Shown piece by piece: positions 48,418 to 55,658 of a stretch of DNA of 64,000 bases (positions within the stretch are counted from its first letter, which is position 1; each line of letters opens with the position of its first letter). Origin of the DNA: Oligoflexia bacterium (GTDB lineage: Bacteria > Bdellovibrionota > UBA1018); NCBI GenBank assembly GCA_031292385.1, contig JARLHE010000006.1, positions 104,376 through 168,375 on the forward strand, read 5' to 3'. The notes below the pieces were generated by a model. That model made no database searches and had not been told where the DNA came from. It worked only from the letters and a program-made list of their open reading frames with translations. The translations under genes and the position numbers were made by a program.

Positions 48418-48519
48418 GCGCTTCTCCTTTTTCATTCCAATCTGTTTTTTATCGGAAACAGAGAAGTATAGCAAGCCGGCTGCTTGAAAAGCGAACTAAG
48501 TTCGTTTATGCTCTGAGGC

Positions 48520-49182
48520 ATGCCGCAGTACCAAAAAGAAGAAGTTCGCGACGCGATTTTAAGCACGGCCAAGCAGGAATTTTTGCGCAAAGGATTCCGC
48601 GACGCCAATCTGCGCGAAATCTCGCGGAAAGCAAAAGTCCCGGTCGGCAATCTATACAATTATTTCGACGATAAGAACCAACTCTTCGAGGAAGTGCTGC
48701 GCCCGCAGATAGAGGCCATTAAAAAAGCGCTTCAAGCGGGAAAGGCCCATGGCGCCGAGTCATCCGATGCGCCGACACATAGCTCAGCATGGCCTCTTGC
48801 CGAAGATGTCAGCCACGGCGTCAGCTACGTTATCGCCCACCGCGCGGAACTCGACCTCCTGATCAATCAGGCGCGCGGATCCTCGCTCGAAGACTTCCTG
48901 GAACAAATCGCTACCGACTATCAAAGAATCTGCATCGAATACTTTGAAGGCCTCGCGCGGAGCAATCCGCAGCGGCGCATTCAGCGGCCGTCGGAATTTT
49001 TTCTTCATTCGCTTTCCCACTTTTACATCAAAGCCGTGGCCGAGATGCTCGATCACGAGCTGAGCGATTCAGAGTTACGCGAGCAGGTAGAGGAGCTTCT
49101 GAACTTCAGTTGGAACGGGCTTGCCGCGCTGCTGGAGCCCCCAAAATCCAAAGACGTGCCCGCGAAAGGCGGAAAATCATGA
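48520..49182 (+). CDS. TetR-family transcriptional regulator
   Basis: VRDAILSTAKQEFLRKGFRDANLREISRKAKVPVGNLYNYFDDKNQLFEEVL. Confidence 0.9.
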   Translation: MPQYQKEEVRDAILSTAKQEFLRKGFRDANLREISRKAKVPVGNLYNYFDDKNQLFEEVLRPQIEAIKKALQAGKAHGAESSDAPTHSSAWPLAEDVSHGVSYVIAHRAELDLLINQARGSSLEDFLEQIATDYQRICIEYFEGLARSNPQRRIQRPSEFFLHSLSHFYIKAVAEMLDHELSDSELREQVEELLNFSWNGLAALLEPPKSKDVPAKGGKS

Positions 49183-49409
49183 CCATTTCGACTTTGGGAA
49201 AATTGCGGCGCGGACAATCCGGCATGATCGTTTCCGTCAAAACCCTCGAGACGCGCCTGCTCGAGATCGGTTTTCTCGAAGGCTCCCATGTCGAGATCGT
49301 GCACGAAGCCCCCTGGGGCAAAGACCCGATCGTGGTTCGGGTACGAGGCGCCCTGATCGCGTTGCGAAGACAGGAAGCGGATTTGGTCGAAGTGGAGATC
49401 CAGTCATGA
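49179..49409 (+). CDS. feoA: Ferrous iron transport protein A
   Basis: MTISTLGKLRRGQSGMIVSVKTLETRLLEIGFLEGSHVEIVHEAPWGKDPIVVRVRGALIALRRQEADLVEVEIQS; ATGA overlap with tetR. Confidence 0.9.
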   Translation: MTISTLGKLRRGQSGMIVSVKTLETRLLEIGFLEGSHVEIVHEAPWGKDPIVVRVRGALIALRRQEADLVEVEIQS

Positions 49410-51295
49410 CGACGATCGCGCTTGCCGGAAATCCCAACTGCGGCAAAACGGTACTTTTCAATATGCTGACGGGAAGCCGGCAAAAAGTCGGCAACTATCC
49501 GGGCGTCACGGTCGAAAAAAAGGAAGGTCCCGCGAAATGCCCTTCCGGGCGCACGGTCAACATTCTTGACCTGCCCGGAACCTGCAGCCTGAACGCCCGA
49601 ACACCGGACGAGGAAATCACCCGCAAAGTCCTGCTGGGCCAGCAAAAAGACGTGCCGATTCCCGACGCGCTGATCGCGGTCGTCGATGCGACCAACCTCG
49701 AACGCAATCTGGGTCTGGTTCTCGAACTGCGCGAGCTGGGCCTACCGATGGTCCTGGCCGTGAACATGATGGATCTGGCCGATCGACGCGGGCTCGAGCT
49801 CGACCTGAAGGAGTTATCGCGGAAACTCGGAGTGCCGGTGGTTCCCTCCGTCGCTGTGAAGAAAAAAGGCATCTCCGAGATTTTAGCGAAAATCGAGGAA
49901 CTGCTCGCGAGCGAAAAACAATGCCGGCCCGCCGCGCTTGCCGAGCCGACTGCTGAGAAGGTTCGGGCGCGCTTCGCGGAGGTCGACGCCATCCTCAGGG
50001 CGGCCACCCATAAGCGATCACGGCCCACCGAATGGACCGACCGTATCGATCGAATTGTTTTGCACCCGGTATGGGGCACGCTTTTGCTGATCGTCGTGCT
50101 GTCCCTGATGTTCCAAGCAATCTTCAGCTGGGCAAACATGCCTCAGGATTGGATCAAGGCCGGAATAAGCCGGCTAGCGGCGGCCGTCGGCCAGCTTCTC
50201 GGCGAAGGCCCCCTGAAAAGCCTCATCACGAACGGGGTGATCGCCGGCGTGGGCGCGGTATTGGTATTCCTGCCGCAGATCCTCCTATTGTTCCTTTTCA
50301 TTCTTTTTCTCGAAGACTCCGGCTATATGGCGCGCGCCGCGTTTCTCATGGACAAACTGATGGGAAAAGTAGGCCTGCACGGACGCGCGTTTATTCCGCT
50401 TCTCTCGTCCCATGCCTGCGCGATTCCGGGAATCATGGCCACGCGCACGATCGAGAACCGGCGTGATCGCCTCACCACGATCCTGGTCGCGCCGCTCACG
50501 ACCTGCTCGGCGCGATTGCCGGTCTATACGCTTTTGATCTCGGCATTCATACCGAACCGCGTCCTTTTCGGGCCGATCCGCCTTCAAGGCATCGTGATGT
50601 TCGGCCTTTACGCCGCGGGACTGATTTCCGCGCTTATCATGGCGATGGTATTCCGGGCGACCTTGCTGAAGGGAAAGAAGCCCCCGCTGCTGCTCGAGCT
50701 TCCGACCTATAAATGGCCGAGCTTTCGCAGCATTTTGCTGGGATTATGGGAAAGATGCTCACTTTTCCTGCATCGAGCGGGCACGGTCATTCTCACTTTG
50801 TCGGTGATTCTGTGGTTTCTGGTTTCTTATCCCAAACCGCCCGCCAATCTTCCAACGGATCCCGCGCATCCGCCTATTTCCTACAGTTTCGCAGGAAAGA
50901 TCGGGCAGACGCTCGAGCCCCTGGTTCGTCCCCTGGGTTTCGACTGGAGAATCGCGGTTGCGCTGATTCCGGGCTTCGCCGCGCGCGAAGTCATGATCAG
51001 CGCGCTGGGCACCGTGTACGCCGTCGAGGGCGATCATTCTCAAACGAATGCGAATGAAGAAGGCGCCACAGAGGCACTGGCCTACAAGTTGGCCAAGAGC
51101 TGGTCCCTGGCCACCGCGCTCAGTCTTCTGGTCTGGTACATTCTCGCCTGCCAATGCCTCTCGACTCTCGCCGTGACAAGAAGAGAGACCAATTCCTGGC
51201 GCTGGCCCGCCCTCATGCTGGGCTATATGACCGCGCTTGCGTATGCCGGATCTTTTTTAACATTCCATTTCGCCAGCTGGCTCGGCTGGGGATAA
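49406..51295 (+). CDS. feoB: Ferrous iron transport protein B
   Basis: [62 protein letters not shown]; polytopic C-terminus. Confidence 0.95.
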   Translation: [629 protein letters not shown]

Positions 51296-51308: not shown

Positions 51309-51506
51309 GTGCTTTCCGTCGAGACCCAGAACAACGTCGTTTTTTTGGTAGCGGCCTTCGTCGTGGGCCTTCTGCTGCGGCGATTCTTCAAGAAGCAACT
51401 GGCTCCGGCGCTCTCCCGCTATTTTTTGAAGCGAGGCCGCGTCCGATGGGCTATGTGGTTCCGTTCGAAAAGCACCCATCATCCAGGCTGTAGGAACTGT
51501 CCATGA
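51309..51506 (+). CDS. FeoB-associated Cys-motif small membrane protein
   Basis: NNVVFLVAAFVVGLLLRRFF TM plus C-terminal HHPGCRNCP; directly after feoB. Confidence 0.6.
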   Translation: MLSVETQNNVVFLVAAFVVGLLLRRFFKKQLAPALSRYFLKRGRVRWAMWFRSKSTHHPGCRNCP

Positions 51507-53536
51507 ACCTTCTAAAATCGTTACGACTATCTAAAGTCACCCTCGGGCATGAAATGCTCTTTTTCGCAGGGCTCGTGGGGCTGGCCTCTGGCTTCGCCGC
51601 GATCGGCTTTTACTGGCTGCTCGATTATTCGACCCACGCGTTTCTGATCGCACGCCCGCAAGGCGTCAGTGTTTTAAGCGGCACCGCGATCGTGCTCTTC
51701 CCCGCGCTTGGTGGGTTGCTTTGCGGCCTGCTCCTTTTTTATTTCGCGCCCGACGCGAGCGGCGGCGTTCCGGAGGTCATTGATGCCTTCCACAATCGCG
51801 AAGGCGTGATCCGTAAACGCGTCTGGGTCATGAAATCGATCGCCTCTTCTTTGTGCGTCGGCTCGGGCGGTTCCGCCGGGCGCGAAGGCCCCGTCGTGCA
51901 AATCGGGGCATCGGTCGGCAGCACGCTCGCGAGGATTTTCATGATTCCCCAAAGCCGGGCACGTCTTCTGACCGCCTGCGGGGCGGCGGGCGGCATTTCG
52001 GCGGTTTTCAACGCGCCCATCGCGGGCGTTTTTTTCGCGGCTGAAATCGTCATGGGCGAATTCGAGATGAGCGACATGACTCTTCTATTCACCTCATCGG
52101 CGATGGCTTGCGCCATCTCCCGCACTTTCCTAAAAAACAACGCGGCATTCGATGTACCCACCTATGAGCTGCACTCCGGTTGGGAGCTAGGCCTTCAGAT
52201 CCTTCTGGGTGTTCTTTGCGCGGTCGTCGGAAAGGCTTTCATCGCATCCCTGCACAAATCCGAAATGACCTTCGCGCGGCTTAAAATCCACCCGGTACTC
52301 AAGCCGGCCCTGGGCGGATTGCTGGTCGGCATCATCGGATTGCTGGTGCCTGAGGTCTTCGGGACCAGCAGTGAAGTCTTGGAGAATATTTTTAACTCAC
52401 CCGCGATACCCGTCTGGCTTCTCACCTGGATGGCGGCAAAAATCATCGCGACCAGTTTGACCTTGGGCTCCGGCGGCTCCGGGGGAGATCTCATGCCCTC
52501 ACTCTTCATCGGAGGAGCGTTGGGTGCCACGCTCGGAAGCTTTGTTCACAGCGCTTTTCCCGCGTTGACGATGGCACCCGGTGCGTACGGGCTCATCGGC
52601 GCCGCCGCGCTTTTCTCGGCGATAGCGCAAGCGCCGATGACCTCCATCATTTTGGGCTTCGAAATGGGCAATAACTACGAGCTGATTTTACCGCTCATGG
52701 TCGCCTGTTCGATCAGCGCCGTGATTTCGAGACATATCCACGAGGGCTCGATTTATACGATCAAGCTGAAAGAGCGCGGCATCGATATCGCCCAGTTCCG
52801 CCATGTCAGCGCCCGCCGCGTGACCGCGGTCTTGCTGATCGTGATCGGCTCGTCGTTCATCTCACGACCGCTGCTTTCCGCCGAGGTGGAAACCAACGCG
52901 ATCGTGACTTCGAACGCGCCGGCGTGGGCGGATGCCGCCCGCTTCGAGAAAGTGACCGCGAAGATTCAGCGCGCGCTCGAATGGGATATCCGGCGCGTGC
53001 ACGTTTTCTGGTACACCGATCAGGCCGTCTTCGAGAAATCCCACGGCTACGGGCCGAGCGTGCTCGCCTACTCCTCGCATAAGGACAATTCGGTTCACAT
53101 CGGGCCCAAAGTCACCGCCGGTAATTTCGACGGAGTTTTTGGCCACGAATTGGTCCACGTCATTATCTTCCAAAAGTACAAGGACGCGATCCCCAAGTGG
53201 CTCGAGGAGGGCCTTGCCAACTATGTCGCCGGCTTCGACACGGTCGATTACTCCTGGCTGAAAACCAGAGTGGCGCAGGAAGGCGACGTAAGAGCGCTCA
53301 TCCATCCTTTTAAGGGCGTCGCTCAACTGGGGGGACCGGAACACGCGCGCTACCACTACATGGCCTCAAAAGCGCTGGTCGAGATGATCGTCGCCAATTG
53401 CAGCCTCAACGACCTGCTGCAATTATCCGTGGGAAAAAAACTTGAAACTTACTTGGACACCTTTTGCGGGATCCCGGACGTGAACTCATCCTTTAAGGCA
53501 TGGGTCGAATCGAAAGGCCGAGCGATTAAGCCTTAG
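51503..53536 (+). CDS. ClC-family chloride channel fused to a C-terminal HExxH metallopeptidase-like domain
   Basis: ClC motifs GSGGSAGREGPVVQIGASVGS and GSGGSGGDLMPSLFIGG. Then TM RRVTAVLLIVIGSSFISRPLL and GHELVHVIIFQKYKDAIPKWLEEGLANYVAG. Confidence 0.9.
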   Translation: MNLLKSLRLSKVTLGHEMLFFAGLVGLASGFAAIGFYWLLDYSTHAFLIARPQGVSVLSGTAIVLFPALGGLLCGLLLFYFAPDASGGVPEVIDAFHNREGVIRKRVWVMKSIASSLCVGSGGSAGREGPVVQIGASVGSTLARIFMIPQSRARLLTACGAAGGISAVFNAPIAGVFFAAEIVMGEFEMSDMTLLFTSSAMACAISRTFLKNNAAFDVPTYELHSGWELGLQILLGVLCAVVGKAFIASLHKSEMTFARLKIHPVLKPALGGLLVGIIGLLVPEVFGTSSEVLENIFNSPAIPVWLLTWMAAKIIATSLTLGSGGSGGDLMPSLFIGGALGATLGSFVHSAFPALTMAPGAYGLIGAAALFSAIAQAPMTSIILGFEMGNNYELILPLMVACSISAVISRHIHEGSIYTIKLKERGIDIAQFRHVSARRVTAVLLIVIGSSFISRPLLSAEVETNAIVTSNAPAWADAARFEKVTAKIQRALEWDIRRVHVFWYTDQAVFEKSHGYGPSVLAYSSHKDNSVHIGPKVTAGNFDGVFGHELVHVIIFQKYKDAIPKWLEEGLANYVAGFDTVDYSWLKTRVAQEGDVRALIHPFKGVAQLGGPEHARYHYMASKALVEMIVANCSLNDLLQLSVGKKLETYLDTFCGIPDVNSSFKAWVESKGRAIKP

Positions 53537-54146
53537 GTGCGGCCGCTGAAGCAGGCGCCGGCGATGTCGGCGGCGGTGTCGCCAAGAACTCCTGGATCTT
53601 CGCCTCCAAATTCCGGATTTTCGCCAGGTAAACCGCCTCGTTCGGCGGCGCTCGGCGCGCGATGGTCGTTCTCACCACTTGTTCCTCGAGCAATTTGTTC
53701 CGACGCTCAAGCTCAGCCACCCGCTCTCGCAGGTTCGAAAAATCGGCTTGCAGCTTGAGCTCCGACTCGGCCGGTTTCGACTCTTCGGGCCCGACCTCTG
53801 GCTTCGGCGGAGCGGTCAAGAACTCGATGGCCTGCGCTCGCGTCTCGAAGCAAAGAATCGTGGGCGGTTGGGCGAAGGCGTCGATCCTGGTCCTCAGTCC
53901 CGGCGTGATTCCAGCAAGCACGATTCGTCCCGAGAGCTCACGGGCGATCAAGTCGATGCTTGCGATCGTCCTCAAAACCTCGGCGGGCACGCTCTCGCTT
54001 TGCACGAGCTCCAAAACTATCTTATTTTTTCCCGTCTTCAGGATTTTTTGAATGCCCGCGCGCAGGACATTGACGTCGTGGGCGACGATCGGCCCAGTGA
54101 CGCTGAGGATCTCCGCGTTTTTTTCGGACGAAAGAGCGAGTTTCAC
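53526..54146 (-). CDS. STAS-like domain protein with C-terminal coiled coil
   Basis: GTG start overlaps the CBS gene stop. KLALSSEKNAEILSVTGPIVAHDVNVLRAGIQKILKTGKNKIVLEL, then coiled coil LRERVAELERRNKLLEEQV. Confidence 0.6.
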   Translation of the reverse strand: MKLALSSEKNAEILSVTGPIVAHDVNVLRAGIQKILKTGKNKIVLELVQSESVPAEVLRTIASIDLIARELSGRIVLAGITPGLRTRIDAFAQPPTILCFETRAQAIEFLTAPPKPEVGPEESKPAESELKLQADFSNLRERVAELERRNKLLEEQVVRTTIARRAPPNEAVYLAKIRNLEAKIQEFLATPPPTSPAPASAAAPKA

Positions 54147-54544
54147 GTCAGCCGCGCTCGGTAATAATACATACGGATGATGTCGCGTCGGGTGATGATG
54201 CCGACGAGTTTGTTTTGCTCGTCCACCACCGGCAACCGGCGAAACTTCTGATCCAGCATCTGGTGCACGACCTCGTCCAAATCCGTGCCCGTCGAGATCG
54301 TCCGCGCGCCCTTGGTGTATTCGAAAGGCGCGCTCAGATCGACCTTGTTCGCGGAGTCGACCTTGGCGATCTGGGCCATTAAATCGTATTCGGACACCAC
54401 GCCGACCATTTCCCGTTTCGCGTTTACGACCGGAATTCCGGTAATCCGGTGATTGATCAGCAGTTTGAGCACATCCTCGACCGGAGCGCCTTCCTGAATC
54501 GTGAGAACTTCCGTAGACATGATTTCTTGTGCGGTGGTCTTCAT
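54143..54544 (-). CDS. CBS domain pair protein
   Basis: AQEIMSTEVLTIQEGAPVEDVLKLLINHRITGIPVVNAKREMVGVVSEYDLM...FRRLPVVDEQNKLVGIITRRDIIRM. Confidence 0.92.
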   Translation of the reverse strand: MKTTAQEIMSTEVLTIQEGAPVEDVLKLLINHRITGIPVVNAKREMVGVVSEYDLMAQIAKVDSANKVDLSAPFEYTKGARTISTGTDLDEVVHQMLDQKFRRLPVVDEQNKLVGIITRRDIIRMYYYRARLT

Positions 54545-54545
54545 C

Positions 54546-55658
54546 ATGTTTAAATATAAAGTGCGATTGGAACAAATGGAAGCAGACTCGCTTACCACGC
54601 CCTTCCCTAGGCTTTTGGATGAATTCTTGAGGCCGGCGGCTCCGGACACGGTCCTGTTGCGCGTTCTCGCCGCCGCCGGCGACGAAACCGTGCGGGCAAG
54701 CGAGCTTCGCCCCTTAATCGACTCGGACACCGGCTATCGAAACTACCTCTTTGCTCAGGCATTCCTTTCGACCCGGATATCCGATTGGTTTGAAGAGAAC
54801 GCCAACAGCGCCGAGCGCGATAGAATCGCGCTGGAGCGCACGCTGGGGCTTTTGGGCAAGGCCCCCATTCGGAATATCCTGGCCTGCGCCAGGATCGAAC
54901 GAATCCTGGGTACCTCAACCGACCGCGACCTTCATGATGATCCCGAGCTGAAAATCAGCACACAGCCATCGACCCTGATACCGTATGCGCTCGAGGCGGA
55001 GAAAACCTGCCAAGACCGGCTTTGGCTCTCTCCTGAAACGGCGTTTTCCGCCGGCATCCACTACGACTGGATTGCCGCGGCCATCAAAAAGCGAGCGGGA
55101 TCGGCGGAGGAGAAATCGGCGGTTGCGAACGCATTCACAGAAGGCATCCTCACCGCCAAGATGGCCTACGCGCTCGGGGAGCGAACCAAGGAAATCAAAA
55201 CCGGAAAGTATCTATTCGCGACGGGACTGCTTCTTCCGATCGGAAAAGCCCTGATGATCTGTCTTTACCCCAAGGGCAAGGCCGCGGCTTCCTGGGCGGA
55301 ATTTCTTGCCGACGCCGACCGGGCGGCCGATCGCCGTTTTGACTACCTCCGTTTTCTCGAGCCCAAGAAATTTCCAGCCACTCATGCCGAGCTGAGCAGC
55401 CTCTTCGTGAATTTCGGCGGTGTTTTGAGCTCGCTCGAAAAGTCGCTTTGCTTTTATCAGGACCCGGAAGTTCTAAACAAGGTCAACCCGGACGATTATG
55501 ATCTTGCCGTTCTGCTTTCGTTGGCGACCCGGATGGCCGCGACCAAAAGCGGCGGCTTCAAAATCGAGCCCTTTCAAGATCGCTGGATGAAGGCCAACCA
55601 AATCACGGCCGGCGCGCTTCAGGCGGCCGCGGCCGATGCGTTAAGCGCAAAAAAATAG
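54546..55658 (+). CDS. Conserved hypothetical protein (possible divergent HDOD-like)
   Basis: Long alpha-helical ORF divergent from the CBS gene; ALERTLGLLGKAPIRNILACARIERIL. Confidence 0.5.
   Translation: MFKYKVRLEQMEADSLTTPFPRLLDEFLRPAAPDTVLLRVLAAAGDETVRASELRPLIDSDTGYRNYLFAQAFLSTRISDWFEENANSAERDRIALERTLGLLGKAPIRNILACARIERILGTSTDRDLHDDPELKISTQPSTLIPYALEAEKTCQDRLWLSPETAFSAGIHYDWIAAAIKKRAGSAEEKSAVANAFTEGILTAKMAYALGERTKEIKTGKYLFATGLLLPIGKALMICLYPKGKAAASWAEFLADADRAADRRFDYLRFLEPKKFPATHAELSSLFVNFGGVLSSLEKSLCFYQDPEVLNKVNPDDYDLAVLLSLATRMAATKSGGFKIEPFQDRWMKANQITAGALQAAAADALSAKK

Follow-up and report, generated by a model that had tools for sequence, protein, structure and literature searches.

The C-termini of ClC proteins are cytoplasmic, as is established for the family. 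Among described systems, the first half of the protein studied here is closest to the ClcB-like voltage-gated chloride channel proteins (PRK01862, PF00654), which it resembles over the whole ClC core, with 36–41% identity to ClC-CBS proteins of other Bdellovibrionota and with the gating glutamate retained. It differs from them in being part of a fused ORF that lacks CBS domains and has a signal-peptide helix and a peptidase in their place. The second half resembles the Peptidase MA superfamily (PF13485) and the gluzincins of families M1, M9, M30 and M61 in its HExxH motif, in a Glu that follows 17 residues on in WLEEGLAN, and in its predicted gluzincin fold; however, the fused domain falls below the PF13485 cut-off, has 9–15% identity to structures, and belongs to no named family that we could find. 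The same invariant catalytic, Cys and N-terminal xxTN features occur in a family of periplasmic peptidases of the Bdellovibrionota. The members of that family are single-domain secreted proteins, whereas here the domain stands behind a ClC, with no separate ORF, and has kept the signal-peptide sequence. CLCA proteins are metalloproteases that were formerly named chloride channels (PMC3650047); the pairing of "chloride channel" and zincin is merely coincidental in their case, as they are not ClC transporters and no sequence relation to them was found or is claimed. We found no literature on a ClC-peptidase fusion or on this peptidase family.

One reading frame spans a ClC core and a peptidase-like domain

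The stretch of DNA that we analysed (the window; 64,000 nucleotides) comes from the genome of an Oligoflexia bacterium, a 3.39-Mb draft in 62 contigs, where it occupies positions 104376–168375 of contig C27. As claimed in a first-pass annotation of the window, a single ORF of 677 codons runs from ATG to stop with no interruption (Table 1). When we searched 369 genomes of the phylum with the full protein, the sole full-length match was the protein itself. Full-length homologues exist for each of the two halves, and codon usage favours frame 0 on either side of the ClC/peptidase junction; on this evidence, the fused ORF is far beyond what chance would produce.

Table 1. Coordinates of the fused ORF, its parts and the genes upstream of it (positions in the window).
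Feature	Position	Strand	Basis or remark
TetR-family regulator; opens the apparent operon	48520–49182	+	Pfam
FeoA	49179–49409	+	ATGA overlaps with TetR before and FeoB after
FeoB	49406–51295	+	TIGR00437, 520 bits
65-aa single-helix membrane ORF ending ...GCRNCP; weak, sub-threshold FeoB_associated match	51309–51506	+	Stop overlaps ClC start as ATGA
Fused ORF: ClC core, hydrophobic segment and putatively periplasmic gluzincin-like domain	51503–53536	+	One uninterrupted ATG-to-stop ORF, 677 codons
ClC core, residues 1–430, without CBS domains	51503–52792	+	Pfam; aligned with 1kpl (a CLC structure)
Junction and signal-peptide/TM segment, residues 431–459: QFRHVSARR VTAVLLIVIGSSFISRPLLS	52793–52879	+	Alignment with about 30 standalone relatives; hydropathy
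GTGA: GTG as candidate start of an ancestral peptidase gene, over a +1-frame TGA (would-be 4-bp overlap)	52820–52823	+	
Peptidase domain, 218 residues (A460 to end); HExxH 548–552, third ligand E569, Cys633/Cys655	52880–53533	+	

The ClC core is complete, as had been proposed. Voltage_CLC (PF00654) matches residues 70–410 above the cut-off and over the whole Pfam profile (positions 1–346 of 346; E = 1.4e-97, 327.5 bits). The gating glutamate of the GREGP motif is kept (GSAGREGPVVQIG), as is, by alignment to 1kpl, the Tyr equivalent to Y445 of CLC-ec1; in the same alignment, the position of the inner proton glutamate (CLC-ec1 E203) is occupied by Ile. The ClcB-like equivalog profile PRK01862 scores 299 bits, below its cut-off of 482 bits, and the match reaches profile position 436 of 577, with the C-terminal part absent. 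The nearest relatives, at 36–41% identity over residues 1–430, are ClC-CBS proteins (about 565–616 aa) from other families of the Bdellovibrionota. In these proteins a linker and a pair of CBS domains follow; here the frame reads QFRHVSARR-VTAVLLIVIG instead. Two CBS-less ClCs, one from the same genome (L047) and one from a peptidase-bearing locus (L081), end about 15–20 residues past a shared RRG motif, indicating that a core stopping at this point is complete. The relatives of the ClC in its own family (f1) reach no more than about 33% identity, whereas the best relatives of the peptidase include f1 members at 55–56% identity, suggesting that the ClC may have been acquired separately from the peptidase. 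The filter loop of the ClC (DASGGVPEV, residues 84–92, 51752–51778) is one residue short relative to those of its relatives (GHGVPEV) and of CLC-ec1 (GSGIPE).

The peptidase domain and its standalone relatives

The GHELVHV and EEGLANY motifs listed in the first-pass annotation are present, at residues 547–553 and within WLEEGLANY at residues 566–574, and their reading as a gluzincin-type Zn site was borne out. In an alignment of 42 peptidase sequences, the H, E and H of HExxH, the Glu of WLEEG, a His-Pro, a Tyr and two Cys are invariant; the zinc-site residues are H89, E90, H93 and E110 in domain numbering. Structure prediction likewise modelled the domain as a gluzincin (AlphaFold; pLDDT 94.2, pTM 0.91), with clostridial collagenase peptidase domains as the best Foldseek matches in the PDB (E about 1e-4, TM 0.54–0.59), followed by M1, M61 and M30 enzymes. 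A search for solved structures by sequence gave nothing credible. Peptidase_MA_2 (PF13485) matches residues 522–641 at 25–28 bits, under the gathering cut-off of 32.4, with an E-value of 1.6e-5 for the whole ORF and of 2.1e-6 for the sequence from the GTG, and all 30 of the peptidase relatives scanned match the same profile at E up to 1. Based on the fold matches, the invariant HExxH and Glu, and the lack of a named profile, we describe the family as gluzincin-like in its modelled fold and as unnamed in Pfam and NCBIfam. The domain is putatively active in proteolysis.

The relatives align over the whole domain, with 45–58% identity for the closer members and 37% for the most distant. Every intact relative found is encoded by its own ORF, usually of about 225–260 aa, and the family shares the motif HELxHxxxxQKYxxAIPxWLEEGLAN and the two invariant Cys. 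The Cys pair fits a periplasmic disulphide. That the relatives carry signal peptides and share two invariant Cys supports the earlier suggestion of an extracytoplasmic peptidase. A profile scan of GTDB contigs with the peptidase alignment found 51 loci, whose GenBank titles name Bdellovibrionales, Oligoflexia, Bacteriovoracaceae and a few loosely labelled MAGs. The host genome carries one copy of the peptidase, with no second found. In the peptidase tree, the nearest row is L099, from Bdellovibrionales RIFOXYD1, with modest support (84/82), a placement that is consistent with vertical descent. The family (window 52880–53533; L035–L045 and L078–L143) is nearly confined to the Bdellovibrionota, and we looked for a conserved gene neighbourhood of the peptidase among these relatives and found none.

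The junction and the origin of the fused frame

The hydrophobic segment (residues about 440–460) and the GTG at 52820 are located as the first-pass annotation had described. The GTG occupies exactly the position homologous to the start of the standalone relatives. In relatives with an intact N-terminus, the signal peptide, as judged by eye and from the alignment, ends directly ahead of the conserved xxTN (...STAWA/IDPIETN, ...VVQA/GELQTN; slashes mark cleavage), and the fused ORF aligns in register with this cleavage region (SRPLLSA/EVETN), so that by analogy cleavage is predicted after A460. A single helix spans residues 429–452 in a full-length model; this model was made without ClC homologues and is poor in its ClC part, and only the peptidase and the junction helix were used. 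The A that follows the GTG creates a TGA in the +1 frame of the ClC, through which the ClC frame reads. A GTGA at the peptidase start with a TGA in the +1 frame suggests a once-overlapping gene pair that was joined by an indel, whether genuine or an assembly error.

The probable explanation, in our view, is a lineage-specific event in which two ordinary genes fused by way of the signal peptide of the peptidase. Consistent with this, and with the idea of an ancestral gene fusion raised in the first-pass annotation, the relatives carry the peptidase as a separate signal-peptide gene. In the proposed ancestral state, a CBS-less ClC gene closing a feo operon would have overlapped a downstream periplasmic peptidase gene by GTGA; a small indel close to the stop codon of the ClC would then have destroyed the 4-bp overlap and joined the two genes in frame. 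The apparent operon has the order TetR-FeoA-FeoB-small ORF-ClC, and its genes overlap by 4 bp (ATGA) at three of the four upstream junctions, at 49179, 49406 and 51503.

Alternatively, the indel may be an error of assembly or base calling, in which case the ClC would end at the TGA at 52821–52823 and a separate secreted peptidase, translationally coupled as its operon neighbours are, would start at GTG 52820. We regard such an error as unlikely, yet as an explanation to be taken seriously. The ATGA overlaps of TetR/FeoA, FeoA/FeoB and small ORF/ClC match a GTGA at the homologous standalone start, the peptidase is separate in all intact relatives with no second genome carrying the fusion, the CBS-less ClCs L047 and L081 stop shortly past the same RRG motif, and the assembly is a draft. 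However, an A is expected after a GTG by chance in about 1 case in 4, the longest homopolymer at the junction is 3, and rpoB and rpoC of the host genome are unbroken. Codon usage, too, points to frame 0 as far as about residue 434: over residues 430–439, frame 0 is favoured over +1 by 4.8 nats, as compared with a 5–95% range of -12.2 to 1.3 nats for true +1 frames in nine-codon windows. Over the last six codons (residues 434–439) the value is 1.4 nats, and the test is powerless there. Of the pattern that the first-pass annotation had set against a fusion, separate ORFs in relatives together with a frameshift here, the separate peptidase ORFs were found, but no frameshift is demonstrable at this junction; the loss of conserved catalytic residues that it had named as the other counter-sign does not apply, as these residues are invariant. 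Counting every reading that includes it, the fused frame is likely to exist in the organism.

A lineage-specific fusion would have consequences for topology. The Arg-Arg and 13-residue apolar core of the former signal peptide would insert as an extra helix in an N-in/C-out orientation, as expected from the cytoplasmic C-terminus of the ClC, and would carry the peptidase into the periplasm, where the peptidases of the relatives reside. The peptidase would then either remain tethered to the ClC dimer or be released by signal peptidase after SRPLLSA. Release by signal peptidase I, which is possible since the cleavage region is kept, would give two products from one frame and leave the ClC with an extra C-terminal helix. 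We lean slightly towards a single-gene polyprotein of this kind, a ClC with a cleavable or permanently attached C-terminal periplasmic protease acquired through a captured signal peptide. Lasting tethering is possible from the sequence but not supported over release, and the kept cleavage region argues against it. The "membrane tether" of the first-pass annotation therefore stands as far as the hydrophobic segment is concerned; however, this segment corresponds to the cleavable signal peptide of a standalone peptidase, so the tether may not be permanent, and the earlier interpretation as a whole is partly supported.

An additional translation start at GTG 52820, from which a separate peptidase would be made and secreted as a second primary product beside the fusion, is improbable. 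The GTG is at the homologous position, the 238-aa product would fall within the family length of about 225–260 aa, and the basic n-region that this product would lack is missing from several relatives too; however, no Shine-Dalgarno-like sequence lies ahead of the GTG (cagttccgccatgtcagcgcccgccgc), and no same-frame upstream ORF ends there for coupled re-initiation.

Recurrence and neighbouring genes

The search of the 369 order, class and phylum genomes, among which there is no other genome of the same genus, was also a search for the same architecture, and no second fusion was found in these genomes or at the 51 peptidase loci. GTDB contigs scanned with the full protein yielded no relatives, and plasmid records matched the ClC half only, no match there spanning 80% of the query. 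We found no ClC-peptidase operon in relatives: the sole ClC in the peptidase neighbourhoods that we fetched, L081, lies about 2 kb off with an opposite-strand gene between, and is only distantly related. It is very improbable that the protease and the ClC form a functional module in which they regulate each other (the protease, for example, sensing or processing something at the transporter): the one point in its favour is that both domains look intact and are physically linked, but the fusion does not recur and the two genes are not operon partners in relatives, so that, with no conserved peptidase neighbourhood either, a functional partnership lacks comparative support. We conclude that the fusion is probably real but also probably a one-off.

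If the junction is real, the locus would be a clear case of an operon overlap giving rise to a gene fusion, with a signal peptide converted to an internal transmembrane segment, and would provide a ClC whose C-terminal extension is on the extracellular side, as opposed to a cytoplasmic CBS domain. The architecture is a singleton composed of parts of known kinds, with the peptidase family as a useful by-product. This small, highly conserved, unnamed family, brought to light here and found almost only in lineages related to predatory bacteria, may hold more lasting interest than the fusion.

The exact ATGA overlaps that link TetR, FeoA and FeoB suggest that the TetR-family regulator is co-transcribed with the ferrous iron transporter. 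A weak sigma-70-like match upstream of the TetR gene (48484–48512) is no better than expected by chance.

Downstream, the genes for a CBS-pair protein and a STAS-domain protein overlap each other by GTGA (53529–54676, minus strand) and are convergent with the fused ORF, whose 3' end they overlap. We rejected the CBS gene (54146–54676, minus strand) as a split-off CBS tail of the ClC, since it is encoded on the opposite strand from a start of its own, with the STAS gene following it. Elsewhere, the 3.4-Mb genome contains four ClC genes of differing subtypes (contigs C27, C32, C54 and C28).
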